DNA of 64,000 nt. Source: Neolewinella lacunae. GTDB taxonomy: Bacteria; Bacteroidota; Bacteroidia; Chitinophagales; Saprospiraceae. Below, one piece after another: positions 7,905 through 63,601 of the stretch (position 1 is the first letter of the stretch; the number at the start of each line of letters is the position of its first letter). The notes under the pieces were generated by a model. That model saw nothing but the letters and a program-made list of their open reading frames with translations. It ran no database searches and was not told the origin of the DNA. Where the stretch lies: assembly GCF_014349155.1 (NCBI RefSeq), contig NZ_JACSIT010000120.1, positions 1 to 64,000 on the forward strand, in the 5' to 3' direction. The position numbers and the translations under genes were made by a program.

Positions 7905-7922
7905 GGCGCGGACGCAGGTGCA
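7905..7922 (+). repeat. Dispersed 18-bp motif, copy 1
   Basis: GGCGCGGACGCAGGTGCA, followed by the purine-rich tail ATGGAAGACCG. It forms an inward-facing inverted pair with copy 2 at 8011. Confidence 0.85.
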
Positions 7923-8010
7923 ATGGAAGACCGAGGGGAGCAAGGGAAGTTGGGGGAGGACAAACCCTGCTCCTTTGTCCTAACTCCCCCCTTCGGGGGG
8001 TCGGGGGGGA
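7923..8010. repeat. Nested hairpins between two inverted 18-bp motifs
   Basis: Between motif copies 1 and 2 the sequence can fold twice. GGACAAA pairs with TTTGTCC, with flanking G-run and C-run arms extending the stem. CCCCCC-TTC-GGGGGG follows. The whole 7905-8027 segment is therefore a compact folded element in the gap between pyc and the marR operon. It could act as a bidirectional transcription stop or as a REP-like element; I cannot tell which. Confidence 0.5.
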
Positions 8011-8027
8011 GCACCTGCGGCCGCGCC
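8011..8027 (-). repeat. Dispersed 18-bp motif, copy 2
   Basis: GCACCTGCGGCCGCGCC, the reverse orientation of the motif, ends the folded segment that starts at 7905. Confidence 0.85.
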
Positions 8028-8129
8028 CAGGGCAAGACAAGGTCCTGAAAAAAGTTGGCCCAGACTTGTTAACTATTCCCCAATGGAAGAAAAGTTACGC
8101 AACAAAAGCCCATCTTCACGGTTTCGCCG

Positions 8130-8154
8130 AAATAGTTGATACGGCAAACTATTT
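8130..8154. promoter_or_regulatory. Probable MarR operator
   Basis: AAATAGTT (8130-8137) and AACTATTT (8147-8154) form a perfect inverted repeat with a 9-base spacer, ending 18 bases before the marR start codon. The position suits autoregulation of the marR-efflux operon. The assignment rests on symmetry and position only. Confidence 0.55.
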
Positions 8155-8172
8155 TAGCTACAACGAATTGCG

Positions 8173-8646
8173 ATGGAGGCAGACATTCCCCTTGGTAAAG
8201 TGTTCAGTGAGTTGGCCAAAGCCTACGCCGGTACCTTTACCGAACGGCTGGCGCACCTGCCCATCAGCCGGTACTACTACGCCCTGGTGGTCATTGAGGC
8301 CAAGGGGGGTGAGCTGAACCAGACGGAGCTGGCCGACGAGATATACACCGACAAAGCGACGGTGGTGCGCATGCTCGACTACCTCGAAACGGAGGGATGC
8401 ATCATCCGCCAGCCCAACCCGGCCGACCGCCGCGCTCACCGCCTGGAGCTGACCCCCAAGGCCCTGGCGATGATCCCTTCCATCAAGGAAGCCCTGCAGG
8501 AGACCAACGCCGAGTGCCTGGCGGTGGCCCGGCAGTTTGGCATCGAAGAATTACCCGCCGCGCTGGCGGCCATGCACTCCCAGCTGGCCAGCGAGAAACA
8601 CACCCCATTCCAAATCCATTTCATACGTCGTGAAGAGAACAATTAA
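8173..8646 (+). CDS. MarR-family transcriptional regulator
   Basis: The 157-residue protein shows the winged-helix pattern of the MarR family. Helices around LNQTELADEIYTDKATVVRMLDYLETEG form the DNA-reading unit, and the wing IIRQPNPADRRAHRLELTPKA carries the diagnostic D-R-R. Such dimers usually repress efflux genes and release DNA on binding phenolic or lipophilic ligands. It heads an operon with the three parts of an RND pump; the next gene overlaps its 3' end. A palindrome just upstream (8130-8154) is the likely operator, so local autorepression is expected. Confidence 0.88.
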   Translation: MEADIPLGKVFSELAKAYAGTFTERLAHLPISRYYYALVVIEAKGGELNQTELADEIYTDKATVVRMLDYLETEGCIIRQPNPADRRAHRLELTPKALAMIPSIKEALQETNAECLAVARQFGIEELPAALAAMHSQLASEKHTPFQIHFIRREENN

Positions 8647-9706
8647 GCCATTCGCGGGCCTCTGCCTGGTGGTCGCCCTGGCCGCCTGCGGTAAAGACAG
8701 CGCTGAGGTAAGCACCCCGGCCAGCAGCGCCAGCAGCGTCATGCAGGCCGACTACGTCGTCGTGCAGCCCCAGCCCGTATCCAACGTCATCAACCTGACG
8801 GGTACTTTGCTGCCTTCAGAGTCCGCCATGTTGAGCGCCCAGAGTTCGGGGCTGGTCAAGGAAATCCTGTTCCGCGAAGGGCAGTACGTCAAAAAGGGCC
8901 AGGAGTTGCTGAAGCTCGACGACCGGCAGTGGGTGGTGCAACGGCAAAAGCTGGCCGCCCAGCTGGAAACCGCCGAAAAAGACCTGGAACGGCGGCAGGA
9001 ATTGCTGAAAATCAAAGGCATCAGCCAGGCGGAGGTGGACGCCGCGGAGCTGCTGGTGGCCACCATCCAGGCCGACCAGGCCGAGCTGGCGGTGCTGATC
9101 GACTTCGCCGTGGTGCGCGCGCCCTTCAGCGGGCGGATGGGCCTGCGCAACATCAGTCCGGGGGCCTACCTGGCCGCGGGCACTTCCTTCGCCCGCCTGG
9201 TGCAGACCGACCCGCTGAAACTGGAATTTAACGTGCCGGAGCGCTACGCCCACCAAATCCGCGTTGGCCAGGAGGTGCGCTTCAGCATTGCCGGGGAAGA
9301 CGATGTGTTTGCCGCCAAGGTGTACGCTACGGACCCCGCCGTGAGCGAATCCACGCGCTCGCTGCGGATCCGCGCCACGGTCACCAACCAGCGCGATGCC
9401 CTCGTGCCCGGCGCGTTTACCGAGATCAGCCTCACACTGGGGAACGTCCCCGACGCCCTGCTGGTGCCCACTGAAGCGGTGGTGCCGGTGCTGAACGACC
9501 AGATCGTCTACCGCATCAGCGGTGGCAAGATTGAAGAAGTGGTGGTGAAAACCGGCATTCGCCTGCCGCGGCTGATGGAAGTCGTTTCCGGGCTGGAGGC
9601 GGGTGACACTATAATGGTCTCGGGTCTGCTCCAGGCCAAAGACGGGGTCCCCGTGCGGGCGGGCCAGGAGATTATCGTCAACAAAACGGAGGTATCCAAG
9701 CCATGA
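8630..9706 (+). CDS. RND efflux periplasmic adaptor (membrane fusion protein), lipoprotein
   Basis: From a GTG at 8630 the product begins with a lipoprotein signal (FAGLCLVVALAAC, lipobox LAAC) and is about 358 residues long. The order is membrane-fusion typical. A barrel/lipoyl half (SGLVKEILFREGQYVKKGQELLKLD) leads into a helical hairpin (QLETAEKDLERRQELLKIKG), the second lipoyl half (VVRAPFSGRMGLRNISPGAYL) and beta-barrel/membrane-proximal domains. It links the inner-membrane pump to the outer-membrane channel. An ORF from 8537 exists, but its first 31 residues lie inside marR in another frame and lack a signal, so the GTG start is preferred. It overlaps the pump gene by ATGA. Confidence 0.9.
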   Translation: MKRTIKPFAGLCLVVALAACGKDSAEVSTPASSASSVMQADYVVVQPQPVSNVINLTGTLLPSESAMLSAQSSGLVKEILFREGQYVKKGQELLKLDDRQWVVQRQKLAAQLETAEKDLERRQELLKIKGISQAEVDAAELLVATIQADQAELAVLIDFAVVRAPFSGRMGLRNISPGAYLAAGTSFARLVQTDPLKLEFNVPERYAHQIRVGQEVRFSIAGEDDVFAAKVYATDPAVSESTRSLRIRATVTNQRDALVPGAFTEISLTLGNVPDALLVPTEAVVPVLNDQIVYRISGGKIEEVVVKTGIRLPRLMEVVSGLEAGDTIMVSGLLQAKDGVPVRAGQEIIVNKTEVSKP

Positions 9707-12700
9707 ACCTTTCCACCATCAGCATCCAGCGGCCAGTATTGGCTACGGTGTTCACCATCGTTATCGTGCTCTTCGGGGCCATTGGCTTCACTTACCTCGG
9801 CGTACGGGAATACCCCAGCGTGGACCCGCCCATCGTAACGGTGAGCACCAGCTACACGGGGTCAAGTGCCGACATCATCGAGTCGCAGATCACCGAGCCC
9901 CTGGAGGAGGCGATCAACAGCGTCAGCGGCATCAACACGGTGACGTCTACGAGTGCCGACGGGCGCAGCTCCATCCAGGTGGAATTTGACCTGGGCATTG
10001 ACATGGACAATGCCGCCAACGACATCCGCGACAAGGTGGCCCAGGCCGTGCGCAGTCTGCCACCCGACGCCGACCCGCCCTCGGTGCAGAAGAGCGACGC
10101 CGACGCGCAGACCATTTTTGCCCTGACGGTGCAGTCGGAAAAGCGCAGCCTGCTGGAGCTTTCCGACATTGGCCTCAACATGTTCAAGGAGCGCTTGCAG
10201 ACCATCAGCGGCGTGAGCAGCATCAATATCTGGGGAGACAAGCGCTACGCGATGCGCCTGGAGATTGACCCCGACCGCCTGGCGGCCTACGGGCTGACGC
10301 CGCTGGACGTGCGTAATGCCCTGCTGGCCCAGAACGTGGAGCTGCCCTCGGGCCGCATCGAGGGCTACCGGACGGAGCTGACCATCCGGACCTTCGGCCG
10401 CCTTTCCACCGAGGAAGATTTCAACAACCTCCTGATTGCCGACCGGGAGGGTACCCTCATCCGCCTCAAAGACATTGGCAAGGCGCGCCTGGGCCCGGAG
10501 AACGAACGCAGTCTGCTGCGCGGCAACGGCGGCATTCCCATGATCGGGATTGCCATCCAGCCCCAGCCCGGCTCGAACTACATTGAGATTGTCGATGAGG
10601 TCAAAGCCCGCATCGAGCAGATCAAAAAAGAATTGCCTGATGACCTCCGGCTGGGAGTTGCGCTCGACACCACGGTGAGTATCCGCAAGGCCATTGAAGA
10701 AGTACAGCAGACGGTATTCATCGCCTTCGGGCTGGTGGTGCTCGTCATCTTCTTCTTCCTGCGCAACTGGCGGACTACCCTGATCCCGATTGTGACGATC
10801 CCGATTTCATTGGTGGGTTCCTTTTTCGTGATGTACCTGGCGGGCTTTTCCATCAACATCCTCACCCTGCTGGGCATCGTACTGGCGACGGGTCTGGTGG
10901 TGGACGACGCCATCGTGGTGATGGAAAACATCTATTCCAAGATCGAAGAGGGGCAGGATCGCATCCAGGCGGCCTTTTCCGGTTCGCGGGAGATCTTCTT
11001 TGCCGTCATTTCCACTACGGTCACCCTGGTGGCGGTGTTCTTGCCGGTGATCTTTCTGGATGGCGTCACCGGGCGCCTGTTCCGGGAATTCGGGGTAGTG
11101 GTAGTGGGCAGTGTGGTCATTTCCTCCTTCATCAGCCTGAGCCTGACGCCAATGATGAGTTCGCGGATCCTGAAAAAGAGTACCCCCCGCAGGGGACTGG
11201 GCAACTGGGTTGGCAAGGGGCTGGAGCGCATGGGCCGGGGCTACGAGCGTTCGTTGCGGGGTTTTATGCGCCACCGCTGGCTTTCCTTCCTCGTCATTCT
11301 GGGTTCCGTTGCCCTGGTCTACGTGTTGGGCCGGCAATTGCCTTCGGAGTTGGCGCCGCTGGAAGACAAAGGACGGCTACGGATTTTCTCGACCGCGCCG
11401 GAGGGTACGTCCTACGAAATGATGGACGCCTACATTGCCGAGCTAGTGCAGCTGACCGACACCATCGCCGAAAAAGAATCGCTGCTTTCGGTTACTTCCC
11501 CCGGCTTCGGTTCTTCGAGCAGTGTGAACAGTGGCTTTGTGCGCCTGACGCTGAAACCCCTGGAGGACCGGGAGCGCAGCCAGGCGGATATTGCCACGAT
11601 GCTGACGGAGAAGCTTAAAAATTACAACTTCGCCCGCTCGCTGGTGATCCAGGAGCAGACCATCTCCGTGGGTCGGGGGGGCCGGGGCTTACCCGTACAG
11701 TTCGTTGTGCAGGCTCCGACGCTGGAGGACCTCAAAGCCATTGTGCCGGAGTTTCTGGCGCGGGCCAACGAGAGCGAAATCTTCTCGGCCGTTGACCTCG
11801 ACTTGAAATTCAACAAGCCCGAGTTGCAGATCTCCATTGACCGCAGCAAAGCGCGGGAGATGGGCGTGGAGGTGAGCGACATTGCCCAGACCCTGCAGTT
11901 GCTCTACAGCGGGCAGCGCTTTGGCTACTTCATCAAAGACGGCAAACAGTACTACGTCATTGGCGAAGCGCTGCGCACCTCGCGCGATGAGCCCTCGGAC
12001 ATCAGCGGCATCACCGTACGCAACAGTGCGGGAGAGCCCGTGCAGTTGGACAACCTGGTGACTACCCAGTTTGAGAGCAGTCCGCCCCAGCTCTACCGCT
12101 ACAACCGTTTTGCGGCGGCCACCTTTTCGGCGGGCCCCAAGGATGGCTACACCATTGGGCAGGGCATTGACGAGATGCGGGCGATTGCGGCCGAGGTGTT
12201 GGACGAACGGTATACGACCAGTCTGGCGGGCACCTCCAAGGAATTCAGTGAAAGCTCGGGCAGTTTGTTGTTCGCCTTCTTGCTGGCCCTGGGTCTGGTG
12301 TACCTCACGCTGGCGGCGCAGTTTGAGAGCTTCCGTGATCCGCTGACGATCATGCTCACCGTGCCGCTGGCCATTGGCGGGGCAATTCTGGCGCTCTGGT
12401 TGTTTGGCCACACCCTCAACATCTTCAGCCAGATCGGGATGATCGTTCTGGTGGGCATCGTTACGAAAAACGGCATTCTGATCGTGGAATTTGCCAACCA
12501 GCGCCGCGAGCAAGGCCTCAGCATCCGCGAGGCGGCAACGGACGCCGCCGCTAAGCGCTTCCGGCCGATCCTGATGACGAGTCTGGCCACCATCCTCGGG
12601 GCCATGCCCATCGCTTTGGCCCTCGGCGGAGGTTCTACGAGCCGCATTCCGATGGGGGTAGCCATTATTGGCGGACTGGTATTTTCGCTCATCCTGACCC

Positions 12701-12792
12701 TCTACGTCATTCCGGTGCTTTATACGCTCATCACCAGCAAGCGCGAGAAAAAACAAGTAGTGGAAGAAGTAAAAATGGAGGAATATGCTTAA
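9703..12792 (+). CDS. RND multidrug efflux permease (HAE-1, AcrB-like)
   Basis: The 1029-residue inner-membrane protein matches the AcrB family length. It has the twofold arrangement of one membrane helix, a large periplasmic loop and a helix bundle. TM4 carries the proton-relay acidic pair in GLVVDDAIVVMEN. The second half has GIVTKNGILIVEFANQ and the usual closing helices (GVAIIGGLVFSLILTLYVIPVLYTL). It exports amphiphilic compounds by proton antiport in a tripartite complex with the preceding adaptor and the following TolC-like channel. Overlaps of 4 and 8 bases with its neighbours indicate translational coupling. Substrate cannot be deduced. Confidence 0.95.
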   Translation: MNLSTISIQRPVLATVFTIVIVLFGAIGFTYLGVREYPSVDPPIVTVSTSYTGSSADIIESQITEPLEEAINSVSGINTVTSTSADGRSSIQVEFDLGIDMDNAANDIRDKVAQAVRSLPPDADPPSVQKSDADAQTIFALTVQSEKRSLLELSDIGLNMFKERLQTISGVSSINIWGDKRYAMRLEIDPDRLAAYGLTPLDVRNALLAQNVELPSGRIEGYRTELTIRTFGRLSTEEDFNNLLIADREGTLIRLKDIGKARLGPENERSLLRGNGGIPMIGIAIQPQPGSNYIEIVDEVKARIEQIKKELPDDLRLGVALDTTVSIRKAIEEVQQTVFIAFGLVVLVIFFFLRNWRTTLIPIVTIPISLVGSFFVMYLAGFSINILTLLGIVLATGLVVDDAIVVMENIYSKIEEGQDRIQAAFSGSREIFFAVISTTVTLVAVFLPVIFLDGVTGRLFREFGVVVVGSVVISSFISLSLTPMMSSRILKKSTPRRGLGNWVGKGLERMGRGYERSLRGFMRHRWLSFLVILGSVALVYVLGRQLPSELAPLEDKGRLRIFSTAPEGTSYEMMDAYIAELVQLTDTIAEKESLLSVTSPGFGSSSSVNSGFVRLTLKPLEDRERSQADIATMLTEKLKNYNFARSLVIQEQTISVGRGGRGLPVQFVVQAPTLEDLKAIVPEFLARANESEIFSAVDLDLKFNKPELQISIDRSKAREMGVEVSDIAQTLQLLYSGQRFGYFIKDGKQYYVIGEALRTSRDEPSDISGITVRNSAGEPVQLDNLVTTQFESSPPQLYRYNRFAAATFSAGPKDGYTIGQGIDEMRAIAAEVLDERYTTSLAGTSKEFSESSGSLLFAFLLALGLVYLTLAAQFESFRDPLTIMLTVPLAIGGAILALWLFGHTLNIFSQIGMIVLVGIVTKNGILIVEFANQRREQGLSIREAATDAAAKRFRPILMTSLATILGAMPIALALGGGSTSRIPMGVAIIGGLVFSLILTLYVIPVLYTLITSKREKKQVVEEVKMEEYA

Positions 12793-14122: not shown

Positions 14123-14159
14123 GGTTACGTATTTTGGATTACGGACGCTGCGCATGATA

Positions 14160-14196
14160 CCCCGGATTACGGATGCTGCGCATCCTCCATCCGGGG
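14160..14196. repeat. REP-like nested hairpin (CCCCGGAT...ATCCGGGG), copy 1
   Basis: CCCCGGAT-tac-GGATG-ctgcg-CATCC-tcc-ATCCGGGG is a 37-base nested inverted repeat directly downstream of the efflux operon. A nearly identical element ends the tandem array at 46932-46968, and both are followed by an ATTAA..GTTCGACCCCT segment. A second, smaller hairpin (GACCCC-TAC-CGGGGTC) follows at about 14208. It may terminate or stabilise the operon transcript. Confidence 0.7.
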
Positions 14197-14345: not shown

Positions 14346-14359
14346 AATCCAAAAACAAC

Positions 14360-14386: not shown

Positions 14387-14395
14387 GATCCACCA

Positions 14396-15413: not shown

Positions 15414-15431
15414 TGCACCTGCGTCCGCGCC
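15414..15431 (-). repeat. Dispersed 18-bp motif, copy 3
   Basis: TGCACCTGCGTCCGCGCC, in the gap between the divergent mscS and tagaturonate reductase genes. Confidence 0.85.
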
Positions 15432-16996: not shown

Positions 16997-17014
16997 GGCG
17001 CGGCCGCAGGTGCA
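16997..17014 (+). repeat. Dispersed 18-bp motif, copy 4
   Basis: GGCGCGGCCGCAGGTGCA abuts the annotated start codon of the GH28 gene. The motif plus its following ATGGAA resembles copy 1 at 7905, so the GH28 start codon may be part of the repeat. Confidence 0.85.
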
Positions 17015-22015: not shown

Positions 22016-22033
22016 TGCACCTGCGACCGCGCC
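22016..22033 (-). repeat. Dispersed 18-bp motif, copy 5
   Basis: TGCACCTGCGACCGCGCC lies in the lacI-TonB receptor gap. It faces away from the imperfect copy at 22064. Confidence 0.8.
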
Positions 22034-22063: not shown

Positions 22064-22081
22064 GGCGCTGCCGCAGGTGCC
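22064..22081 (+). repeat. Dispersed 18-bp motif, imperfect copy 6
   Basis: GGCGCTGCCGCAGGTGCC differs from the consensus at two positions. With copy 5 it forms an outward-facing inverted pair. The rest of the 21826-22240 gap shows no gene or clear promoter element. Confidence 0.65.
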
Positions 22082-28285: not shown

Positions 28286-28303
28286 GGCGCGGCCGCAGGT
28301 GCA
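28286..28303 (+). repeat. Dispersed 18-bp motif, copy 7
   Basis: GGCGCGGCCGCAGGTGCA, followed by a GA-rich tract, 35 bases behind the stop codon of the enolase-superfamily gene. Confidence 0.85.
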
Positions 28304-33651: not shown

Positions 33652-36600
33652 ATGTCTTTGCGCCCCGCCACGTCTTTCCTCGCCCTCTTCCTGCTGCTCC
33701 TTTTCGGTGCAGGCCTCTCCGGCCAAGCCCCCACGCTGGTGGTGCCCACCGGCCACGGCAAGGCCATCACCGATCTGGCGGCCTCCCCGGCCGGTGATCT
33801 CCTCGCCTCGGCGGCGCTCGATGCCACGGTGAAAGTCTGGAACACGGCCGCCAGCCGCGAAGTCCACACCTTCCGCCCCAAAGACTACGCCCGCTCCCTG
33901 GCCTTCAGCCCCGACGGCAAGTACCTGGCCGCCGCCACCTTTACGGAGCTCTACGTCTGGGAAGTCGGCTCCTGGCGGCCCGTCAAAACCATCAAAGGCT
34001 GGTTCATGGACGCCCTCGTCTTCCACCCCACCCGCAACGAGCTTTTCTACCAGACCCAGAAGATCAACAGCACGGGCGAAGACCCCCAGCAGGTGTGGCG
34101 GATCACCCTGCCCGCCGGCAGCCCCAGCCAGCTCGCTACCGTCCCCTTCGCCGAAAGCGGACGCCACAAAATGGATCACCTGGACATCTCCCCCACCGGC
34201 CAGCAACTGCTGCTCGTCACCGGCGACGGCATCGGCCACCTCATCCCCACAAATGGAGCGGCCCGCACCCAGGTGGAAGGCGCCCGCCGCTTCACCCCCA
34301 CGGGCAATCTCCTCTGCATCTCCGACGCCGGCACGAGTCCAAGCCTTAGCCTGCGCCGGACGGACGGCAGCAGCATCTGGCAAAGCAACTCCACCAAGGA
34401 ACAAACGGCCAACCGCAACCTCACCCACGTGGCCGGCTTCGGCGGTCCGGCCGGCCACCTCTACTGGATCAACCAGGACGGCAAACTGGTCTCGGGCGAT
34501 TACCGCACCAATACCCTGACCGTGCGCAACCTGCCCGGTATCCTCGACAGTGAACTCACCATCGCCACCAACGGCATCCTTTACGTAGCGGGCAAAAGCC
34601 CCTTCCAGATCCACGGCTACGCCCTGCCCGACCTCCAGACCGTCGTCACCCTCGGCGAAAGCATCCTTCTGCCCGCCCAACTCGCCGCCCAGGACGGCAG
34701 CCAACTGCTCGCCTGGGGCAGTGCCGGCAGCCTGAAAACGCTGGAAATGAAGGGCCGCAAAACCATCACCACGGCCATCACCCCCAGCCTCCACGCCGGT
34801 CGGCTGCACCTGAGCGCCAACGGCAGCCTGCTGGCCACCGGCGCTACCAGTGGCGACAACTTCAGCTACCACCACCGCAGCAAGCCCCTGGAAACCAAGC
34901 GCTTCAAATCTGAGCTCGGCCCCACCGCCGGCGTGGCCAGCAGCGGAGACGGCAACTTCATCGGCGTTGCAGGTCGCAATGGCTTCATGGTGTTGAACAC
35001 CGCCAGCCACAAGTTCGTCGTCCGCGAAGCCCTGCCGGCCACCACTGGCTTTTACCAGGATGACGTCGCGCTATCCCCCACCGGCAACCTGCTCCTCCTC
35101 AACCAGGCCCGCATCCAGCCGGATGGCAGCAACCGCACCTGGCACCTGCTCTACGACGTCAGCCAAAAAAGCAAGCGCTGGGAAGCCACCGGACGCCTCG
35201 AGGACCCGTCGTTTTCCGCCGACGGCAGCACGATCTACGGCCTCATCTACGAGTTCGTCGTGCAGCTCGACGCCAGCACCGGCCGGGAGCTCCGCCGCTG
35301 GCCACTGCCCAAGGGCCGCTTCCCCTACGCCGCCCAGTTCAACCGGGCCAAGACCATGGTCGCCTACAGCCACAGCAGCCGGGGCTACGTGCTGGACCTC
35401 CGCACGGGCCAGGAAAGCGAGCTCAAGACGGATGCCACCCTACCCATCGAGCGCGTGGCCTTCGTGGGCGAGGACTTCATGATCAGTGCCGGCAACGACG
35501 AGCTCGTCAGCCTCTGGGACCTCCGCAGCCGCCGCCGCGTCGCCCAACTCGTTCAGTACGCCGCCGCCGAGGGCTGGGCCGTGGTGGCCCCCGACGGCCG
35601 CTTCGACGCCGCGCCTTGGGCCATGCAGCGCATGTACTACCGGGTCGGGACCGAAAATTACCCCCTCGAACAACTCCTGGAGGGCTTCTACACGCCGGGT
35701 CTGCTGGCGGAAATCCTGAGCCGCAGCAGCACGCCCCCACCGCCGGTCAACATCAACCGCATCGGGCAAAAACCCACGGTCACCATCCAGTACACGGCCG
35801 GTACGCGCAACCTCACGGTGGAAGATGACGACGTAGCAGCGTCCATTGTGGCGCTGACGCAGGATGCAAAGATCGTTGTGAAGGCCGTGGCCGCCGGAAG
35901 CACCGTTGCCGAGATCCGCCTGTACCACAACGGCAAGCTCGTCTCGCCCGGCACCCGCAACCTCATTGTGGAAGACGACCCCGGCGGCAACGAAAAAAGC
36001 TTCCAGCTCCGCCTTTTGCCGGGAGAGAATACGCTCAAAGCCGTCGCCATCAACGCCGAACGCACGGAGAGTGACCCCGCCTTGCTCCTCATCCAGTACA
36101 CGGCACCTGCGGACGCGCCCGCGAACAACAGCCTCCGCGACGGCATTACCCTCCACCTCCTCACGGTGGGCATCAACCAGTACAAAAACCCCCGCTACAA
36201 CCTCAATTACGCCGAGGCCGACGCGGCGGGCCTCGAAAATCGCCTGCAAACGGGGATGCAGGGCCTGGTGGGCAACACCCGCCTGTACAGCATCCGCAAC
36301 GAGCAGGCGACGCGGGCCAACATCCTCGCCGCCCTGGAAACGGTCCGGACCCAGGCCGGGCCCAACGATGTTTTCGTCTTCTACTTTGCCGGCCACGGCG
36401 TGATGAGCGAAGGGACGGAAGCGGACTTTTTCCTGGTTCCCCACGACGTCACCCAGCTCTACGGCGACCCCAACAGCCTGCAAAACAAGGGCATCTCGGC
36501 CACGGAGATGAAGAACCTGGCGGCGGCCATCCCCGCCCAGAAGCAGCTCTACCTGCTGGACGCCTGCCAGAGCGCCGGGGCCGTGCAGCGCATGGCCGCC

Positions 36601-42390: not shown

Positions 42391-42408
42391 GGCGCGGCCG
42401 CAGGTGCA
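42391..42408 (+). repeat. Dispersed 18-bp motif, copy 9
   Basis: GGCGCGGCCGCAGGTGCA lies 12 bases after pabC, directly ahead of the 69-bp minisatellite. Confidence 0.85.
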
Positions 42409-43148: not shown

Positions 43149-43769
43149 TTAACCCTGTTTCGCTTCCACGCGGGCGACGAAATTCTGCATGGTCCTGACG
43201 GGGCCGGAGGTCATTACCTCCCGGCGCAACCAGGCGGGCAATCCGCTGGCGGCGGTTGTCTGGAAGGTGGAAGAAATGTCGATGCCCCCGCTCGCGTTGG
43301 GGGTGATGACCCACTCGCCGGAGTAAGTCTGTTCGCGGTCGTAGTCTTTGCTGGCGGGCAGGGCCTGGGGGGCGTTCGTGATGCGCCGCGTGAGGACGCC
43401 CGTGGTGGGGTGTATGGACTGTTCCACGATGGCGACTACCTCACGGTTGCGGAAGGGAAAGGGCAGTTTTACCCGCGAGCAGTAGGTGTAGCGATTGGCG
43501 TTTCCGCCGGGGAGGACGAAGGCTTCGGTACAGCGGTGCACCCAGGAAGGGTACGCTTTGGCGTCGTCTAAAACCGCTAAAGCCGCAACTATTTTCGCCT
43601 GGGCAGTAGTGGTAACCCGTACGCTCATTACGTCTTTAGCAGCGGAACGGACGTAGACCCGCACGCCGGCCTCATCGGCCAGCAGTTGGTACCCGCCCTG
43701 CTCTTGTTGGGCAAGACCCGGCACCTGCGTCAGCGCCATAAAAACCAAAAACAGCCCCAAAAAACGCAT
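43149..43769 (-). CDS. Exported START-domain (SRPBCC) lipid-binding-like protein
   Basis: The 206-residue product has a signal peptide (FLGLFLVFMALTQVPGLAQ) followed by a START-type helix-grip domain. Typical segments are LLADEAGVRVYVRSAAKD, DAKAYPSWVHRCTEAFVL, FPFRNREVVAIVEQS and GLPAWLRREVMTSGPVRTMQNF. START-like bacterial proteins bind lipids or other hydrophobic ligands; the ligand here is unknown. It is transcribed toward the minisatellite, whose end lies just past its stop codon. A one-mismatch copy of the dispersed motif lies within its signal-peptide region. Confidence 0.8.
   Translation of the reverse strand: MRFLGLFLVFMALTQVPGLAQQEQGGYQLLADEAGVRVYVRSAAKDVMSVRVTTTAQAKIVAALAVLDDAKAYPSWVHRCTEAFVLPGGNANRYTYCSRVKLPFPFRNREVVAIVEQSIHPTTGVLTRRITNAPQALPASKDYDREQTYSGEWVITPNASGGIDISSTFQTTAASGLPAWLRREVMTSGPVRTMQNFVARVEAKQG
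43720..43737 (-). repeat. Dispersed 18-bp motif, imperfect coding copy 10
   Basis: GGCACCTGCGTCAGCGCC has one mismatch to the consensus. It lies in the signal-peptide coding region of the START-domain gene. Confidence 0.5.
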
Positions 43770-46651: not shown

Positions 46652-46694
46652 GGGGGGAAGGGAATAAAGGAATAAAGGATTAAGGGAATAATGG

Positions 46695-46711
46695 GGCGCG
46701 GACGCAGGTGC
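46695..46711 (+). repeat. Dispersed 18-bp motif, copy 11
   Basis: GGCGCGGACGCAGGTGC, followed by GAGGAAAGGACAGGGAGAAAG. Both the motif and its flanks resemble copy 12 (51956, opposite strand), including an upstream GGGAATAAAGG-like tract, so these two copies share about 80 bases. Confidence 0.85.
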
Positions 46712-46816
46712 GAGGAAAGGACAGGGAGAAAGGGAGAAGGGCCGCCTCCTGGTCGAGGCGTTCTACCTCGAAGTGTTCGCCTGGATTATGGATGCACTGC
46801 CATCTGATGTGGGAGT

Positions 46817-51829: not shown

Positions 51830-51955
51830 GGTGCCCAACGGTTGGTGATAACCAATTGCTTATGGGGGGCTAAAAGCTTGTTTGGAGTTTTACTTCCTGA
51901 TGCCTTCCGGGTTTTGAGACCGCACCTGTACCCCACTTTCTCCTTGTCCTTTCCT

Positions 51956-51973
51956 GGCACCTGCGGCCGCGCC
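51956..51973 (-). repeat. Dispersed 18-bp motif, copy 12
   Basis: GGCACCTGCGGCCGCGCC lies between the DUF5686 and ybbR genes. Its flanks match those of copy 11. Confidence 0.85.
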
Positions 51974-51983
51974 CCTTTACCCT

Positions 51984-52970
51984 TTATTCCCTTACTCTGG
52001 TCTTGCCCAGGAGGTAGTACTCTACGGACAAGGGCGTAAAAAACACGGAGATCACCGCGTCGGGCTGCCGCGTCAGGGTGAGGAGCACCTGGTTGCCCCC
52101 GCTGCCTTTGCGGACCCTGGCCAGGTCGGCCTCCAGCAGAAAATCTTCCGGGCCCACGGCTTCGTAGGCCCCCTGGGGAATGGACACGCGCAATTCCACC
52201 TCCGAAGGATTGAGCCGGAAACTGTCGGTGGGCGAAGCATTGACCACCGTCACCGGCACGGTCAGCGTACGCTCAATGAAGGGCTCTACCTCCAAAGCAT
52301 AGTTCACCTCTTCCCGCGTGAGGGTCAGGCCCGGTCCCGGTGGCTGCAGGCGGACGCTGCGGCGGATATCGCCGTCCACCTGCCGCAGTTCGAGTTCTTC
52401 GGTGGGCCACTCCTCGATGGATTCCAGCTCATCGATTGCCCCGCTGACGGTGACGCTATCGGGCTCAAAAACCGGCGGGGCGGTAGCCAGGTAGCCAGGG
52501 GCGAAGCGTGAACGGATGTTGGAGACAATCGGCACCCGCTTCCCTTCGCGGGGGGTGGTGAGCAAGACCAGCGGCTCGAAGTCCAGTTCGTTGGTGTGCA
52601 AGTCGTTGCTGGAAAGCCTGCGATTGACTTCCAGGCTGATCTCATTGCCCGTCAGGCGGAGGCTCTCCGCACTCCCCACTTCGATCGTCAGGGGGATGGT
52701 TCCCATCCGGAGGCTTTCCCAGATCAGGCTCCAGCCGCTGCCGGCCACCCGCACGTTCATCCTGGTTGGCACCTGTCCCACCAGCGCCCGTTCGGGATCG
52801 ACCTGATAGGAAATTTCTACCTCGCGGGTGATCTCGTAATTTTCCGAGAGGTTCAGAATGAGCCAAAAGACAAAGGCGGCCGTCAGGCAAATGGCCAGGA
52901 TATTGCGGTCCTCGGCGGCCATTTTGCCAATGCGGTTATTCTTTATCAGCCTTTGTAGTGAAGATAGCAT
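51984..52970 (-). CDS. YbbR-like domain protein
   Basis: The 328-residue protein has one N-terminal membrane segment (ILAICLTAAFVFWLILNLS) and several YbbR-type repeats on the outside (EISYQVDPERALVGQVPTRMNVRVAGSG; TVPVTVVNASPTDSFRLNPSEVELRVS). YbbR proteins accompany CdaA-type cyclases in Firmicutes; in Bacteroidota they sit in a conserved yajC cluster. The start at 52970 overlaps the yajC 3' end by 35 bases; an ATG at 52922 would avoid the overlap but trim a conserved basic N-terminus. The usual next gene, coaE, is missing here. Confidence 0.8.
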   Translation of the reverse strand: MLSSLQRLIKNNRIGKMAAEDRNILAICLTAAFVFWLILNLSENYEITREVEISYQVDPERALVGQVPTRMNVRVAGSGWSLIWESLRMGTIPLTIEVGSAESLRLTGNEISLEVNRRLSSNDLHTNELDFEPLVLLTTPREGKRVPIVSNIRSRFAPGYLATAPPVFEPDSVTVSGAIDELESIEEWPTEELELRQVDGDIRRSVRLQPPGPGLTLTREEVNYALEVEPFIERTLTVPVTVVNASPTDSFRLNPSEVELRVSIPQGAYEAVGPEDFLLEADLARVRKGSGGNQVLLTLTRQPDAVISVFFTPLSVEYYLLGKTRVRE

Positions 52971-53264: not shown

Positions 53265-53741
53265 TTATTCGTTGATAACGGTGCCGTCCACGTAAATGGT
53301 TGTTGTGGCCGGGTAAGTATTTGCGGTGATGGTGATGGGCTTGCGTTGCCGCCCGTACTTGCCTTTGGTATCGAAATTGACGCTGATCACGCTGCTGTCA
53401 CCCGGAGCGATGGGCGTTTCGGGGTAGGCCGCTACGGTACAGCCGCAGGTCGAGCGGGCGTTGGTAATCAGCAGGGGCACGCGGCCGGTGTTGGTGAAGT
53501 GGAAGTCGTGGCTGACGACCTCGCCTACGGGCACCTCGCCAAATTGGAATTCCGGCGTAGCAAAGGCCAGGCGGGCCACCGTGGCGGTGTCGGTCACGCC
53601 CGTTCCATCGTCCACGGGGTTGCGGATGATGGCGGCATTGGGTCCCAGTTCGGCGGGGTCCAGGTCATTGGGCGCGTCCGCAGGTGCCGGGGAACAACTG
53701 AACAGCAGGGCGAGAAGGGCAAGCAAGGTCGTAATCCGCAT
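53265..53741 (-). CDS. DUF1573 lipoprotein
   Basis: The 158-residue protein has a lipoprotein signal (LLALLALLFSC) and a DUF1573 immunoglobulin-like domain: EFQFGEVPVGEVVSHDFHFTNTGRVPLLITNARSTCGCTVAAYPETPIAPGDSSVISVNFDTKGKYG. The CGC pair is typical of this family. It is anchored in the cell envelope; the function is unknown. It heads the DUF1573-yajC-ybbR set. A copy of the dispersed motif lies in the low-complexity APADAP stretch right after the lipobox. Confidence 0.9.
   Translation of the reverse strand: MRITTLLALLALLFSCSPAPADAPNDLDPAELGPNAAIIRNPVDDGTGVTDTATVARLAFATPEFQFGEVPVGEVVSHDFHFTNTGRVPLLITNARSTCGCTVAAYPETPIAPGDSSVISVNFDTKGKYGRQRKPITITANTYPATTTIYVDGTVINE
53671..53688 (+). repeat. 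Dispersed 18-bp motif, coding copy 13
   Basis: GGCGCGTCCGCAGGTGCC is identical (on the opposite strand) to the copy in the metacaspase gene. It encodes A-P-A-D-A-P behind the DUF1573 lipobox. Confidence 0.75.
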
Positions 53742-56515: not shown

Positions 56516-56533
56516 TGCACCTGCGGCCGCGCC
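56516..56533 (-). repeat. Dispersed 18-bp motif, copy 14
   Basis: TGCACCTGCGGCCGCGCC lies between the candidate RNA and the end of the WYL gene. Confidence 0.85.
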
Positions 56534-56551: not shown

Positions 56552-57559
56552 TCAGGCGTAAAGGGCGAGGGCATTTTGGAGCCGGACGGCGATCCGTTCG
56601 CGCAGGCTGGTGGGTTCAACTACTTCCACCGCGTCTCCGAAGCTGAGCAATTGCATTTCCAGTTCGGGATTAGGGATGATGGTGAGCGTGAACTCCGGGC
56701 GTGCGGCACCGGGAGCGGAGACTTCCGCTTGGGTGCGGTGGAGCGGTTTGGTCCGCAGGTAACAGGCTTGGAGGGGCGTAGCCCGCAATTTTATCGTTAC
56801 CGCTGGTTCCGCTGGCGGGCGGATGACGCCAACGATGGGGTCGAGCCACTGGAGGGGTTGCAGGTGGGAGGCGTCATAAAAAGCCGTCAGGGAAAGTTCG
56901 GTGACGGAAGTAATGCGGTCGAGGGGGTAAGTCCAGAGTTGCCGCGTTTCGTGATCGTAGGCCAAAACGAACCAGCGCCGGTTGTACTCCTTGAGCAAGT
57001 AGGGGCTGAGTGTAATTTCCTGGGCTTCGGCCAGGTATTCCTGATAATTTACCCGGACGGCCTGGCGGGCGAGGATGGCGTGGTGGAGGGGTTGGAGGTT
57101 TTCGCGGCCGTCGAGGCTGCCGGGGCGGTCCAATTGAATGCTGGGATTTTGGGCGCGGACGCTGGTGCGGAGGTGGTTGGCCAGGCGATGGATGGTCTCG
57201 GAAAAGCCGGCGGGTAATTGCCCATAAGTCAGCTGTTCGGCCCAGTCGACGAGGTTGAGCAAGGTGGTAAAATCTTCGCGGCCGAGGGGTTCCACCTGAA
57301 AGGCATATCCTTTTTCGGTATAGCGGTATCCGCGGCGATTGTGGTATTCAATGGGTGCGGGCGGCCCGTAGGTGCCATTGCGCAGGGTGCGGATATCGTC
57401 CATAATGGTCCGCCGGCTGGGCAATTGAAAATTTTCTATTCCGCATTGCTGAAAACTTTCGTAACATGCGTGCGCTAATTGTTGCCAGGAAATTCCGTCG
57501 GGGTTACGCCGGAGGGCGCGATCGATGGCCAAGTAGCGAAGGTGGGCAGTTTTGCTCAT
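56552..57559 (-). CDS. WYL-domain transcriptional regulator
   Basis: From the ATG at 57559 the product is 335 residues. An N-terminal winged-helix part (LRYLAIDRALRRNPDGISWQQLAHACYE...LPSRRTIMDDIRTLR) is followed by a WYL domain: HHAILARQAVRVNYQEY, LLKEYNRRWFVLAYDHETRQLWTYPLDRI, and a C-terminal WCX-like part. WYL proteins sense nucleic-acid-type ligands and often control CRISPR or DNA-stress genes. It is divergent from the type III operon. A 27-base inverted repeat lies 8 bases upstream of its start, so it probably represses itself and perhaps the cas genes. A GTG/ATG frame to 57646 would run across that operator and is rejected. Confidence 0.87.
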   Translation of the reverse strand: MSKTAHLRYLAIDRALRRNPDGISWQQLAHACYESFQQCGIENFQLPSRRTIMDDIRTLRNGTYGPPAPIEYHNRRGYRYTEKGYAFQVEPLGREDFTTLLNLVDWAEQLTYGQLPAGFSETIHRLANHLRTSVRAQNPSIQLDRPGSLDGRENLQPLHHAILARQAVRVNYQEYLAEAQEITLSPYLLKEYNRRWFVLAYDHETRQLWTYPLDRITSVTELSLTAFYDASHLQPLQWLDPIVGVIRPPAEPAVTIKLRATPLQACYLRTKPLHRTQAEVSAPGAARPEFTLTIIPNPELEMQLLSFGDAVEVVEPTSLRERIAVRLQNALALYA

Positions 57560-57566
57560 GATTTTT

Positions 57567-57593
57567 TTGGTGTGCAGCGAATCTGCACGCCAA
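57567..57593. promoter_or_regulatory. Probable operator of the WYL regulator
   Basis: TTGGtGTGCAG (57567-57577) and CTGCACgCCAA (57583-57593) form an inverted repeat with ten of eleven pairs and a 5-base centre (CGAAT). It lies between the WYL start codon and a minus-strand TACCTTGG that resembles a -7 element, so bound protein would block WYL transcription. The cas6 start is 65 bases away on the other side. Confidence 0.65.
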
Positions 57594-57657
57594 GGTACTA
57601 ACTTAGCACCGAAACAAAAACTATTGTCTCCGTCTCCTAAAATCAACCCAGGAAAGC

Positions 57658-58338: not shown

Positions 58339-58345
58339 ATAAACC

Positions 58346-59887: not shown

Positions 59888-60474
59888 CGCTGCACTACAC
59901 CCTCCAATTTTACGACTACTGGCACACGGGCTCCGGCCTTTCTGGTGGCACTTACGCCGATCAGGTAGTCAACAAGACCGCCGCCGGGCTTCCCGTAGTG
60001 CCCGGAAAAACTATTAAGGGCCTGCTGCGGCACGCCGCCGAAGACTTGCTGGAACTCGGCGACGCGGTCATTAACCAGGAAGCTATTGATGCCATTTTCG
60101 GCCAGAGACACGAAAAAAGGCGGGGCGAAGACCAATCAGGAAAAGCTGAGGAGAAAAAACGAACAATCGGCGAATGCTGGTTCAGCAGCGCAGAACTTCC
60201 GGAAAGCACCACTTCTCAAATCACCGACTCACAACGCCCTCAACTTTACGAAATTCTCGCTTCCACCAAGATTGATGAAAAGACGGGTACGGCAAAAGAC
60301 AGTTCCCTTCGCCAAATGGAGGTCACTATTCCGCTTACCCTCACGGGCTATATTTCCGGCGTGCCAAATGATCAGCAAGTAGTCCTCGAACGCTGTCTGC
60401 AGTACGTCAAGCGCCTGGGACAAAACCGCTCGCGGGGGCTGGGCCGCTGTACCTTTAAAATTTATATGCCATGA
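59884..60474 (+). CDS. Csm3-like Cas7 RAMP protein
   Basis: This 196-residue RAMP protein has a Cas7-type ferredoxin fold: GLSGGTYADQVVNKTAAGLPVVPGKTIKGLLRHAAE at the start, STKIDEKTGTAKDSSLRQMEVTIP in the middle and LGQNRSRGLGRCTF as the glycine-rich loop. Asp 131 (K-I-D-E-K-T-G) matches the residue that cuts target RNA in Csm3. It should form part of the crRNA backbone. It is coupled to its neighbours by ATGA overlaps on both sides. Confidence 0.78.
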   Translation: MTLHYTLQFYDYWHTGSGLSGGTYADQVVNKTAAGLPVVPGKTIKGLLRHAAEDLLELGDAVINQEAIDAIFGQRHEKRRGEDQSGKAEEKKRTIGECWFSSAELPESTTSQITDSQRPQLYEILASTKIDEKTGTAKDSSLRQMEVTIPLTLTGYISGVPNDQQVVLERCLQYVKRLGQNRSRGLGRCTFKIYMP

Positions 60475-61952
60475 CCCTACATTTCACCTGTACACTAATG
60501 TCCAAGGTCGTGCTTTCCGCGCGGGCCGCTACCGAAGGTCAGGTTGACTCACTGGATTACCTCCCGGGCGCTAAGTTCATGGGAATCGTTGCGAGGCAGT
60601 ACGAGTCTATGGACGACCCTGCCCGCCACGACCTCTTTCACAATGGCAAGGTGCGCTTCGGTAATGCCTATCCCTTCGCTAAAGGGGTGCGATTTTATCC
60701 AGCCCCACTGGTCTACTTTACCAAAAAGGGAAGTAAGCCCACCGATACCGATGGTGTGATATACCTTGATCATTTGCTTGACGAAACCAAACGAAAGCAA
60801 TTTTCGAAAGATGGAGACCAACTCAAGCAGGTGCGCAGCGGTTACATTGATGCAGGGGGAAAAAAATCCCTGACCATCGAAACCGATTATCAACTAAAAT
60901 CAGCCTACGACGCGGATTTGCGCCGCAGCAAAGACAGCCAGATGTACGGCTATAGCAGCATACCCCGAGGCACGGTCTTTGCATTCAGCGTTGAAGACAC
61001 TACGGGTAAGTACGCGGAGAAGATCAAAAAAGCCCTCGTGGGAGAGCATGGCCTGGGCCGTTCTCGCACCGCAGAATACGGGCGGGTACGCATTGAAGTA
61101 GCGGAAGCCCCGAAGGACACCGTAATGCAGTCAGCAGTAACAAATGTCGCCCTGGTTTACGCCCTCTCCGACCTGTGTTTATATGACAAATTCGGGCAGC
61201 CGAAGCAACCCACGGCGGAAGACTTAGGCTTCAGTGCTGGAGCCAAAATTGATTGGACGCGTACGCAGGTGCGAAGTGGAGAATACCAGAGTTGGAACAC
61301 CATCCGTTGGAACCGAAATACGGACCGCTGGGTCATTGGCAAAGGATCGGTTTTTTGTGTTGAAAACGTGCAAGAAAAGGTATCCAGCCAGCAAAAATGG
61401 GTAGGCAGCTACCACCAGGAGGGCTTCGGCCAGATCTGGATCAATCCGCCGTTCCTCGAAGCTACCAAGGGAGACCACCAGCGGCCAGGTCTTAAAAAGG
61501 TAGAAGACCAGGAAAAAGTAGCTCCGCTCAAAACGACCAACATCGTACCGGAGAATACCAATAAAGGGTTGTTGGATTTACTGAATCGGCGTGCAGCCCT
61601 TGACAACCTGGAGAACACGATTTATCGCCAGGTGAATGCCTTCATCGAAAAGCAAAAAGCAAGTTTTAGTGGCATCAGCTCCAGCCAGTGGGGAACCCTG
61701 CGCAGCTACGCCAGCCACGCCGCGAATAGTACCGCGCTTCATAAACTGATTTTTGACGAAAAAACGGGCTTCTTGCACCGGGGACAGTCGGAAAAAGTCT
61801 GGCGTAAATGCCGCGACGAGTTGCAAAAAGCGGTGTCACAAATTGAAGATAAAACGAAAAACAAGCCCAACGAAAAAGACGACAGGCCTCTCCTCTTCCT
61901 CCAAAAACTGGCCGCCGAAATGGCCAAACGCACCAAAAACCAAGAAGCATGA
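60471..61952 (+). CDS. Csx10-like RAMP protein (type III-D-like)
   Basis: The 493-residue protein has an N-terminal RAMP segment, KVVLSARAATEGQVDSLDYLPGAKFMGIVARQYE, and the glycine loop HGLGRSRTAEYGRVRIEV. It resembles Csx10 (cyan_RAMP_2), the Cas5-like subunit that grips the 5' handle of crRNA in type III-D complexes. The C-terminal third is helical and less conserved. Position between the Csm3-like and double-Cas7 genes fits a III-D operon. A degenerate copy of the dispersed motif lies at 61257. Confidence 0.65.
   Translation: MTLHFTCTLMSKVVLSARAATEGQVDSLDYLPGAKFMGIVARQYESMDDPARHDLFHNGKVRFGNAYPFAKGVRFYPAPLVYFTKKGSKPTDTDGVIYLDHLLDETKRKQFSKDGDQLKQVRSGYIDAGGKKSLTIETDYQLKSAYDADLRRSKDSQMYGYSSIPRGTVFAFSVEDTTGKYAEKIKKALVGEHGLGRSRTAEYGRVRIEVAEAPKDTVMQSAVTNVALVYALSDLCLYDKFGQPKQPTAEDLGFSAGAKIDWTRTQVRSGEYQSWNTIRWNRNTDRWVIGKGSVFCVENVQEKVSSQQKWVGSYHQEGFGQIWINPPFLEATKGDHQRPGLKKVEDQEKVAPLKTTNIVPENTNKGLLDLLNRRAALDNLENTIYRQVNAFIEKQKASFSGISSSQWGTLRSYASHAANSTALHKLIFDEKTGFLHRGQSEKVWRKCRDELQKAVSQIEDKTKNKPNEKDDRPLLFLQKLAAEMAKRTKNQEA
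61257..61272 (+). repeat. Dispersed 18-bp motif, degenerate coding copy 15
   Basis: ACGCGTACGCAGGTGC keeps the CGCG and CGCAGGTGC core inside the csx10-like gene. It may be chance. Confidence 0.35.
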
Positions 61953-63601
61953 CGAACAGTAAAATCTATCTCGCCCGCCTGACGGTGGAAGCAGCCAGCC
62001 CCCTCGGTATCGGCTCCGGACGCCGGGGTATTACCACCGACCGATTGGTTGCGCGCGATGCTTACGGGCTGCCCTACCTGCCGGGGACAGCTCTGGCGGG
62101 CTGCTTACGCAACTCTCTTAGTGGGCAGTTGGAGGATAAGGTGCTCAATGAAGTCTTTGGGTTTCAGGACAACGACGAAGGGATTGGCAGTCGCCTCATC
62201 ATTTCCTCCGGGCACCTGATCGGGCCGGATGGAAAAGTCGTCGGCGAAGACAATGGATTACCCACCTACGAAAACGACTACCTCAAAAGCCTGACTGAAG
62301 GAAGCCTTCCGCAGCGCGACCACGTCCGCATCAACAGCCGGGGTGTGGCAGATGCGAAAGGCCACGGTAAGTTCGATGAGCAACTCGTGCCACGGGGCGT
62401 ACGCTTCGTGTTTGAACTGTGTTTGCACGGTACTGATGATGACGCTGATGTGTGGAAGCAGTTGGTACAGGAATTCTGCCAGCCCATTTTTCGCATTGGT
62501 GGAGGGACTCGGAAGGGTTTCGGGAAGCTGAGTGTAAAAGCCATCAAGCAGTGCATACTGGACCTCAGAAATGCCGAACAATTGTCCGCTTACCTCCAGC
62601 TTACTTCGGCGCTCGACGCTCCCCTACCCTCTGCTTTTACTACTTCCATTGCACCTGCGGACGCGCGCCAAGATGATAAGTGGCTTACCTACGAATTAAG
62701 GCTTACGGCCCGCGACTATTTCCAGTTTGGCAGGGGTATTGGCGGGATATCGGAAAGCGCTAGTGCCGTTAAAGATGGCTGGGTCAGCAAGCTGGCTAAG
62801 CGCGAACCTGTTGTGACCTGGGAAAATGGCAAGCCGAGTCTACTGTCTGGTGATAAAGCCTGTTACTTGCTCCCGGCCACCTCTTTAAAAGGAGCGCTGA
62901 GCCACCGGACGGCCTTTCACTACAACCAATTACGGAAAAACTACGTAGAAGACCAGAAAATCAAGGAAACCAGTGGCCCCGACTACGACAGCATTGTGGA
63001 GGATCTCATGCCGGTTCATAGCACACTGCCCAAGACCCCGGAGGAAATCAAGCGGGAGATTGAGCGATTGATGGAGTTTCAATCGACCATAAACGAGATA
63101 GACGTCGACAAGAGCGCGACCTTCCGGAAATTCACCGAAGAAATTGATAACGCTCAAACCGACGAGGCAAGACCCAACGTCGGCGAAAACAATGACGCCG
63201 TACGCGCCCTGTTCGGCTTCGCCGTGGAGCGGCAAAAAGACGAAAATGGTAAAGACAAAAGCGCCCAGCGCGGCCGGGTACTGATTGACGACGTATTTCT
63301 CGACTCCGACGAGGTGCAAGTCAAAACCTTCAGCCACGTGATGATCGACCGCTTTACCGGCGGGGCCAAGGCGGGAGCGCTGTTCAACGAAGACGTGGCC
63401 AGGACAAAGGAAAAAATCGTCTTCACCATTCAAGTGGAGAAAACGGCTTTTGACGGAGATAACGGCGACCTTATTAAAAATGCCTTCGAAGAGGCGTTGC
63501 TAGATCTATCCCGAGGTCAACTTCCCCTTGGCGGCGGAATAGCAAAAGGCCACGGCGTCTTCTCCGGCGAATTAATCACCCCAGAAACCCAGCAGGTATG
63601 A
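61949..63601 (+). CDS. Fused double Cas7 (Csm3-like) RAMP protein
   Basis: Two Cas7-type domains are fused in 550 residues. The first starts LTVEAASPLGIGSGRRGITTDRLVARDAYGLPYLPGTALAGCLRNSL and has RDHVRINSRGVADAKGHG, where Asn 129 stands at the usual catalytic Asp. The second starts about residue 240 (LRLTARDYFQFGRG..., LLPATSLKGALSHRTAF) and keeps the motif HVMIDRFTGGAKAGALFNED with Asp 467. If active, only the second domain would cut target RNA. Fusion of Cas7 units is a feature of III-D/III-E-like systems. It overlaps both neighbours by ATGA. Confidence 0.78.
   Translation: MTNSKIYLARLTVEAASPLGIGSGRRGITTDRLVARDAYGLPYLPGTALAGCLRNSLSGQLEDKVLNEVFGFQDNDEGIGSRLIISSGHLIGPDGKVVGEDNGLPTYENDYLKSLTEGSLPQRDHVRINSRGVADAKGHGKFDEQLVPRGVRFVFELCLHGTDDDADVWKQLVQEFCQPIFRIGGGTRKGFGKLSVKAIKQCILDLRNAEQLSAYLQLTSALDAPLPSAFTTSIAPADARQDDKWLTYELRLTARDYFQFGRGIGGISESASAVKDGWVSKLAKREPVVTWENGKPSLLSGDKACYLLPATSLKGALSHRTAFHYNQLRKNYVEDQKIKETSGPDYDSIVEDLMPVHSTLPKTPEEIKREIERLMEFQSTINEIDVDKSATFRKFTEEIDNAQTDEARPNVGENNDAVRALFGFAVERQKDENGKDKSAQRGRVLIDDVFLDSDEVQVKTFSHVMIDRFTGGAKAGALFNEDVARTKEKIVFTIQVEKTAFDGDNGDLIKNAFEEALLDLSRGQLPLGGGIAKGHGVFSGELITPETQQV
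62650..62667 (-). repeat. Dispersed 18-bp motif, coding copy 16
   Basis: TGCACCTGCGGACGCGCG lies in the linker between the two Cas7 domains, read as A-P-A-D-A-R, in the same frame as the metacaspase and DUF1573 copies. Confidence 0.65.

Follow-up and report, generated by a model that had tools for sequence, protein, structure and literature searches.

Several kinds of short sequence are dispersed through bacterial chromosomes. Known Chi sites are 5–8 nt long; that of E. coli is polar and replichore-biased, has about 1,000 copies per genome and is useful to phages. Repetitive extragenic palindromic (REP) sequences, with their REP-associated tyrosine transposases (RAYTs), form strain-specific families of hundreds of dispersed, mainly intergenic copies and include inverted pairs, and the highly iterated palindrome (HIP1) of cyanobacteria is a very abundant dispersed short palindrome of uncertain function. 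Uptake-sequence systems are, to our knowledge, known from two proteobacterial families, and in one of them the USS+ and USS− forms of the uptake signal sequence (USS) were reportedly found to be evenly spaced by Karlin in 1996. The DNA uptake sequence (DUS) of the Neisseriaceae is dispersed and abundant, with species dialects around a conserved core (PMC3630211); it occurs about once per 1.1–1.5 kb, is rarer in diversifying or acquired DNA and has a spacing that matches the size of conversion fragments (PMC2397512). The USS of the Pasteurellaceae lies within 100 bp of another copy in 23% of cases (PMC7811141). We describe a polar motif of 17 bases, GCACCTGCGNNCGCGCC, that recurs throughout a stretch of 64,000 nucleotides from Neolewinella lacunae (contig NZ_JACSIT010000120.1, positions 1 to 64,000; hereafter the window) and throughout the genome from which it comes.

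Like the Neisseriaceae DUS, this motif is dispersed, abundant and divided into species dialects, and like the USS it has A/T-rich parts. It differs from the DUS in its Bacteroidota host, its longer bipartite core, its density of about one per 3.75 kb, the failure to find a pilus ATPase, its carriage on phage contigs and a strand-wise spacing that is not known to be reported for the DUS. It shares abundance and dispersal with HIP1, but is polar rather than palindromic. With REP sequences it has in common hundreds of scattered copies lying mostly between genes, inverted pairs and strain-specific families.

The window contains 12 exact and five one-mismatch copies, counted over the 15 fixed positions (Table 1); at up to three mismatches there are 22 matches, against 2.9 expected from dinucleotide shuffles (standard deviation 1.7, largest shuffle 8). 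A preliminary description of the window had listed 16 copies, with coordinates that proved to be correct or off by one base, and had missed the one-mismatch copy at 57152. It rightly noted that copies occur in both orientations, that the AT-rich stretch at 1–4.3 kb has none and that three coding copies all encode A-P-A-D-A; a simple gene caller places three further copies within genes (43721, 57152 and 61256), two of them antisense. The two middle bases do vary, as it stated, yet they are biased (in G000, the genome of which the window is part, G 0.65, T 0.20 and A 0.11 at the first, C 0.86 at the second), and what it called a purine-rich tail is a pyrimidine-rich 5′ flank seen from the other strand. 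A scan of the window against Rfam returned no family, and a plasmid search with positions 7800–8200 gave no match.

The excess is genome-wide. G000 (5.8 Mb in 154 contigs) contains 508 exact copies on the forward strand and 520 on the reverse, 1,028 in total, and no copy of the reversed pattern. In a 460 kb sample of it the real core gave 91 exact and 27 one-mismatch matches, compared with 0.0 and 0.2 for scrambled cores, and the mismatch spectrum was steep (91, 27 and 11 at zero, one and two mismatches), falling to near background beyond that. Of the 21 Neolewinella genomes surveyed, which have 0 to 1,028 exact copies each, all but one have at least one such copy, and a survey of 199 genomes of the family, four of them from the genus, found a single copy in one of the other 195. 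Counted on both strands against controls, the motif is in excess beyond the window and in related genomes, and the preliminary description understated it. A loose pattern of the same architecture matched 302, 237 and 512 times in three sampled genomes of the genus, compared with 12, 6 and 7 times for the reversed control. None of 177 genomes from 111 other genera gave a comparable result, the highest being 18 against 1 in G018, in a scan that a dialect lying outside the loose pattern would escape. G018, which belongs to another genus of the family, has TTGCAACTTCGTTGCCTC at four of the 16 listed loose-pattern places, possibly a separate dispersed repeat.

Within the genus, some species use a form of their own. 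The dialect TTGCTACTTTGNNAGYC has 436 copies in G205 and none in the 20 other genomes of the genus, while the main core has two copies in G205. Similarly, TACCTGCGNTCCGCCGCC has 159 copies in G207 and at most one in any other genome of the genus, and the main core is absent from G207. Both dialects keep the same register as the main core. Further variants were sought by motif refinement on intergenic DNA of genome samples, with thresholds taken from reversed sequence and four shuffled seeds each. The number of sites exceeded that from every shuffled seed for GCACCTGCGGCAGCGCC in G204 (15 intergenic sites; shuffled seeds, 3 or fewer) and for variants in G208 (29; 5 or fewer), G214 (20; 2 or fewer), G209 (12; 2 or fewer), G215 (10; 3 or fewer) and, by a small margin, G199 (9; 6 or fewer). 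Samples of G006, G201, G202, G203 and G206 did not rise clearly above shuffled seeds, and the runs on G201 and G202 settled on other repeats. In G116, where the main core has 528 copies in the whole genome, one shuffled seed reached 23 sites compared with 13 in the best run; in G193, which has several hundred exact main copies, a shuffled seed that reached 69 sites had in all likelihood converged on the same motif.

In G000 and G193 the core consists of GCACCTGCG, two loose bases and CGCGCC(C), preceded by a pyrimidine-rich flank and followed by an A-rich stretch at +18 to +22. A TGCTC box starts 11–30 bp upstream in 51 of 225 sites in G000, 38 of 110 in G193 and 2 of 34 in G205. TGCT begins mainly at −19 to −22, and 31 further TGCT counts at −41 to −43 in G000 are probably the same box displaced outward. 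In 40 of the 225 G000 copies, but in none of the 110 from G193, a hairpin-like C-rich/G-rich sequence of the CCCCCCTTCGGGGGG type lies within 60 bp 5′ of the core, as at 7975–8010 of the window. Six single copies folded no better than shuffled DNA (z −1.1 to 0.7).

The 225 sites with at most one mismatch in 844 kb of G000 comprise 153 intergenic, 71 coding and one partial site, in DNA of which 85% is coding (coding fraction and gene positions are those of the simple gene caller). Their orientation is independent of gene direction, with 34 same and 44 opposite in tandem regions and 40 sense and 31 antisense within genes, and we therefore rejected a transcription-linked element. The first 120 nt of genes hold 14 of the 71 coding copies, compared with 7.1 expected; by eye, some of these gene-start copies resemble signal peptides. 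Stretches of G000 below 50% GC, 32 kb in all, had two sites, whereas the other 420 kb had 122.

Alignment with orthologues shows that coding copies, where this could be checked, arose mostly in place, without insertion. A first count, which admitted weak sites, took 197 coding sites from eight genomes, of which 54 had an orthologue at 50% identity or more; it kept 77 alignments at that threshold (92 exist at 35% or more). Sixty-four of the 77 were gap-free at the site and eight were insertion-like; 46 of the 54 sites had a gap-free alignment, and random positions in the same alignments were gap-free in 94%. Since 19 of the 64 gap-free alignments came from weak G207 sites, the count was repeated with strict sites of six genomes (112 sites, of which 29 gave 45 alignments), whereupon 33 of 45 alignments were gap-free and 22 of 29 sites had a gap-free orthologue. 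One gene position carries species-specific variants, GCACCTGCGGCAGCGCC in G204 and GCACCTGCGGGCGCGCC in G116. The linker that holds the window copy at 36103 has motif variants in three of seven related genes (GCACCTGCGTCAGCGCC in G204, GCACCTGCGGCCCCGCC in N. persica and GCACCTGCGTCCGCGCC in an N. persica paralogue) and no motif in G208, G211, G205 and one G000 paralogue; since this linker varies in length, in-place origin cannot be judged there.

Copies are spaced strand by strand. Same-strand pairs in the 844 kb of G000 numbered 0 (12 expected) below 400 bp, 3 (36) at 0.4–1.6 kb, 6 (24) at 1.6–2.4 kb, 14 (24) at 2.4–3.2 kb, 13 (24) and 19 (24) in the following two 0.8-kb bins and 46 (48) at 4.8–6.4 kb, so that same-strand copies avoid each other below about 3–4 kb. 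In contrast, opposite-strand pairs were near expectation except for an excess below 200 bp, where there were 19 head-to-head and 7 tail-to-tail pairs compared with 3 expected of each. Of the head-to-head pairs, 11 lay in tandem, 5 in divergent and 3 in convergent regions, and a role as terminator pairs was discarded on this ground. Mean same-strand spacing in G000 was 7.2 kb, with a coefficient of variation (CV) of 0.50, whereas shuffled strand labels gave 0.85 (minimum 0.70; 0 of 2,000 as low). The CV was 0.52 in G193 and 0.48 in G205, which has a different dialect, each again with 0 of 2,000 label shuffles as low; the effect was weaker in G207 (0.69; 52 of 2,000). Among 250 pairs of neighbours at most 3.2 kb apart, pooled from ten genomes, 204 had their two copies on opposite strands. 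Taken singly, six of the ten showed alternation significant at 0.05, the others being G207, G199, G006 and G209. Such spacing implies a process that reads one strand, or that reads with direction. The orientation bias that the preliminary description entertained, in the manner of FtsK-orienting polar sequences (KOPS), is not seen at the level of contigs, replichores not being mapped: a 384-kb contig has 53 copies on the plus and 54 on the minus strand, and five shorter stretches are near-equal. As every contig stretch examined was so balanced, a KOPS-like site was rejected.

The motif also occurs on phage DNA. Scanning IMG/VR with the extended core returned 45 stretches, many of them single GC-rich hits with the look of chance matches. 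Others, mostly with a GC fraction of 0.51–0.58, have the pyrimidine flank and often several copies. Among the latter, locus L342/L320 encodes a tape-measure protein and a helicase. Terminase and portal-like proteins are encoded by L306, and proteins like tail fibres by L302, L305 and L307. Statistics were taken on 12 loci (127 kb) picked by eye from 45 + 10 stretches for their pyrimidine flank, near-duplicates being avoided; four of the 12 have a phage structural match (tail, tape-measure, portal or terminase), and in the other eight none was found or sought. Beyond the copy that retrieved each locus they hold 17 copies, or 0.13 per kb, compared with 0.27 per kb in G000 and 0.0 for scrambled cores, and all ten of their same-strand neighbour distances are at least 3.3 kb. 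Four viral loci with distant tape-measure proteins (47–52% identity, GC 0.32–0.38) had no motif, and a terminase query matched only its own contig. Several IMG/VR samples share one type of phage (L311, L315, L316, L319 and L342), with the motif at the same places, and in it two same-strand copies 3.6 kb apart flank the tape-measure gene.

Among candidate machinery, ComEC occurs in 21 of the 21 Neolewinella genomes, but this is a weak criterion, as the model also matches E. coli and nine other control genomes. PF12705 nuclease matches lie in open frames of 998–1,147 amino acids in 20 of the 21, a length that we infer to be that of AddB. Y1_Tnp proteins were likewise found in 20 of 21; the exception, the fragmented assembly G211, has 654 motif copies. 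Within the Bacteroidota, Riemerella is transformed by means of ComEC, DprA, ComF and proteins unlike known transformation machinery (PMC8459023). A search of mostly open-access papers gave no uptake data for the genus and no earlier report of an uptake sequence in Bacteroidota.

The steep mismatch spectrum of G000, the 1,028 copies compared with none reversed, the dialects and the mostly in-place origin of coding copies strongly support selection or drive at the DNA level, as the preliminary description proposed. Its suggestion of an uptake-like signal remains the best single reading, and we tentatively favour the view that the motif is a polar, genome-wide site for recognition of self DNA, akin to a DUS. 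A putative protein would bind the bipartite 17-bp core (a TTGC-half, two loose bases and a CGCC-half) together with the A-rich 3′ stretch and, in part of the copies, the TGCTC box that lies some two helical turns upstream. DNA bearing the site would be preferentially taken up and recombined, with the result that sites, arising mostly by point mutation, would spread and persist by molecular drive, and each species would drift to its own dialect jointly with its reader. Judging from the spacing, the reader would work strand by strand, only same-strand copies within about 3–4 kb being redundant. The reader, the uptake role and the drive are what we infer from a pattern whose dialects, mostly in-place origin, intergenic preference and symmetry closely match those of DNA uptake sequences (PMC3630211, PMC2397512, PMC7811141, PMC1939737).

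Several observations weigh against an uptake signal. Of the competence genes to which the preliminary description pointed, ComEC is there, but no type IV pilus or type II secretion ATPase (PF00437) was found in the 21 genomes: matches were partial, at most about 25 bits, with 11 genomes nominally at the cut-off, and two such weak proteins that were scanned were both ClpB/ClpC-like. DUF5689, a domain of a protein required for transformation in Riemerella, occurs in one of the 21 and was rejected as the reader for that reason. A double-strand uptake model predicts that opposite-strand neighbours should also be redundant, and they are not; a directional version was discarded as the cause of the spacing because the tail-to-tail suppression that it predicts was not seen. 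In Haemophilus the orientation of the uptake sequence has no effect on uptake (PMC1939737), which fits poorly with strand-wise redundancy. The motif is also on phage contigs, where it is about half as dense as in the host. The mismatch spectrum is flatter in G193 (45, 47 and 18) and G205 (16, 18 and 17), and depletion in low-GC DNA is weak in the former and not evident in the latter. Moreover, 8 of 45 alignments in the strict recount are insertion-like against a background of 2.6%, so that a minority of copies in loose linkers may involve indels. The missing pilus ATPases, the strand-wise redundancy and the phage carriage do not match DNA uptake sequences, and we file the motif under neither the DUS/USS nor the Chi family.

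Redundancy by strand and carriage on phages would be better explained by a Chi-like polar signal, read directionally during resection by a helicase-nuclease (of AddAB type or other) that changes mode at the site. Each strand would then need a site every several kb and a second nearby site on the same strand would be redundant, in keeping with the CVs of 0.50, 0.52 and 0.48 in G000, G193 and G205, with opposite-strand pairs near expectation apart from the excess below 200 bp, with the ten of ten phage distances of 3.3 kb or more and with the AddB-sized PF12705 frames in 20 of 21 genomes. The motif is polar in sequence and present in about 1,000 copies, as Chi is in E. coli, and it is found on phages, to which Chi is useful. 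However, its 15 fixed core bases plus flanks are far longer than any Chi known to us, dialects within, and restriction to, one genus would be unusual, and there is no strand bias within contigs. The spacing fits the Chi-like claim of the preliminary description and the length of the motif does not, and we place this explanation second to uptake, as rather unlikely. A plain nucleoid-protein site, which it also named, would not predict strand-wise spacing. A site for a chromosome-organising or segregation protein, selected directly for even spacing, would account for the regularity on each strand, and the box that part of the copies have about two turns of the helix upstream resembles protein binding; but with a non-polar binder opposite-strand neighbours ought to be redundant as well, dialects would require hundreds of sites to change with the protein, and the motif is also on phages and without strand bias within contigs. 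This seems to us improbable.

We consider it about as improbable that the spacing is a by-product, close copies in direct repeat deleting the intervening DNA with loss of the cells concerned. The depletion is confined to copies of the same orientation, as this would require, but among repeats of at least 16 bp at 0.4–3.2 kb in G000 intergenic DNA there are 38 direct compared with 8 inverted distinct bin pairs, which argues against a general purge of direct repeats, and the idea accounts for the spacing only and not for the motif. A mobile repeat of the REP/RAYT kind or a miniature inverted-repeat transposable element (MITE), spread by transposition, is very improbable indeed. The presence of Y1_Tnp in all but one of the 21 genomes, 19 head-to-head pairs closer than 200 bp where 3 are expected and the insertion-like minority would be consistent with it, but 33 of the 45 strict alignments are gap-free, flanks are unshared beyond short boxes, the six single copies folded formed no hairpin better than shuffles, and G211 has its 654 copies with no Y1_Tnp detected. 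These points, together with the many coding copies, set the motif apart from REP sequences, and for coding copies a mobile repeat is largely refuted. As a separate observation, at least 8 of the 21 genomes have a Y1-transposase (RAYT-like) match about 2.5–4.5 kb from the weak-PF00437 gene (G006:C7:9900 and 13784 being one case), an arrangement suggestive of vertical inheritance for the transposase.

If the motif is a self signal of the uptake type, it would be a dialect-forming code in Bacteroidota, apparently without a type IV pilus, and so a re-evolution on other machinery; we know of no other DUS-like self signal in this phylum. More speculatively, it is possible that chromosomes, and the phages that share the code, are marked on each strand independently in the local dialect about every 3–10 kb, and that a pilus-free DNA-translocating machine, serving either uptake or resection and defence, reads the strands singly, sparing or importing DNA only where it is so marked. 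As a quantitative clue, the strand-wise spacing can be searched for in Haemophilus and Neisseria and would bear on whether uptake sequences spread by drive alone, and phages with the host code at spaced sites provide a way to approach its reader.

Table 1. Copies of the 17-base motif in the window, with strand and surroundings
Position	Strand	Copy	Surroundings	Basis
7905..7921	-	exact	intergenic; head-to-head pair with 8011 copy	motif match
8011..8027	+	exact	intergenic; 3′ of C-rich/G-rich hairpin-like sequence	motif match
15415..15431	+	exact	intergenic	motif match
16997..17013	-	exact	intergenic	motif match
22017..22033	+	exact	intergenic; tail-to-tail pair with 22064 copy	motif match
22064..22080	-	one mismatch	intergenic	motif match
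28286..28302	-	exact	intergenic	motif match
36103..36119	+	exact	variable linker (A-P-A-D-A) of WD40/caspase-domain protein	motif match
42391..42407	-	exact	intergenic	motif match
43721..43737	+	one mismatch	within gene, antisense	motif match
46695..46711	-	exact	intergenic, amid pyrimidine-rich repeats	motif match
51957..51973	+	exact	intergenic	motif match
53671..53687	-	exact	near start of DUF1573 protein (A-P-A-D-A)	motif match
56517..56533	+	exact	intergenic	motif match
57152..57168	-	one mismatch	within gene	motif match
61256..61272	-	one mismatch	within gene, antisense	motif match
62651..62667	+	one mismatch	within gene (A-P-A-D-A)	motif match

Two smaller observations concern other sequences in these genomes. 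On contig C115 of G205, at 8691–10592, three tandem DUF5689 domains lie in one frame of 708 amino acids, found only in this genome among the 21. Finally, intergenic DNA contains simple repeats of 7–9 bp that are specific to each genome (CTTTATTCC and ACATCTGAC in G000, GGGAGTC and CATTAGATC in G205). They often adjoin motif copies, as at about 46670–46790 and 51930–52000 of the window.

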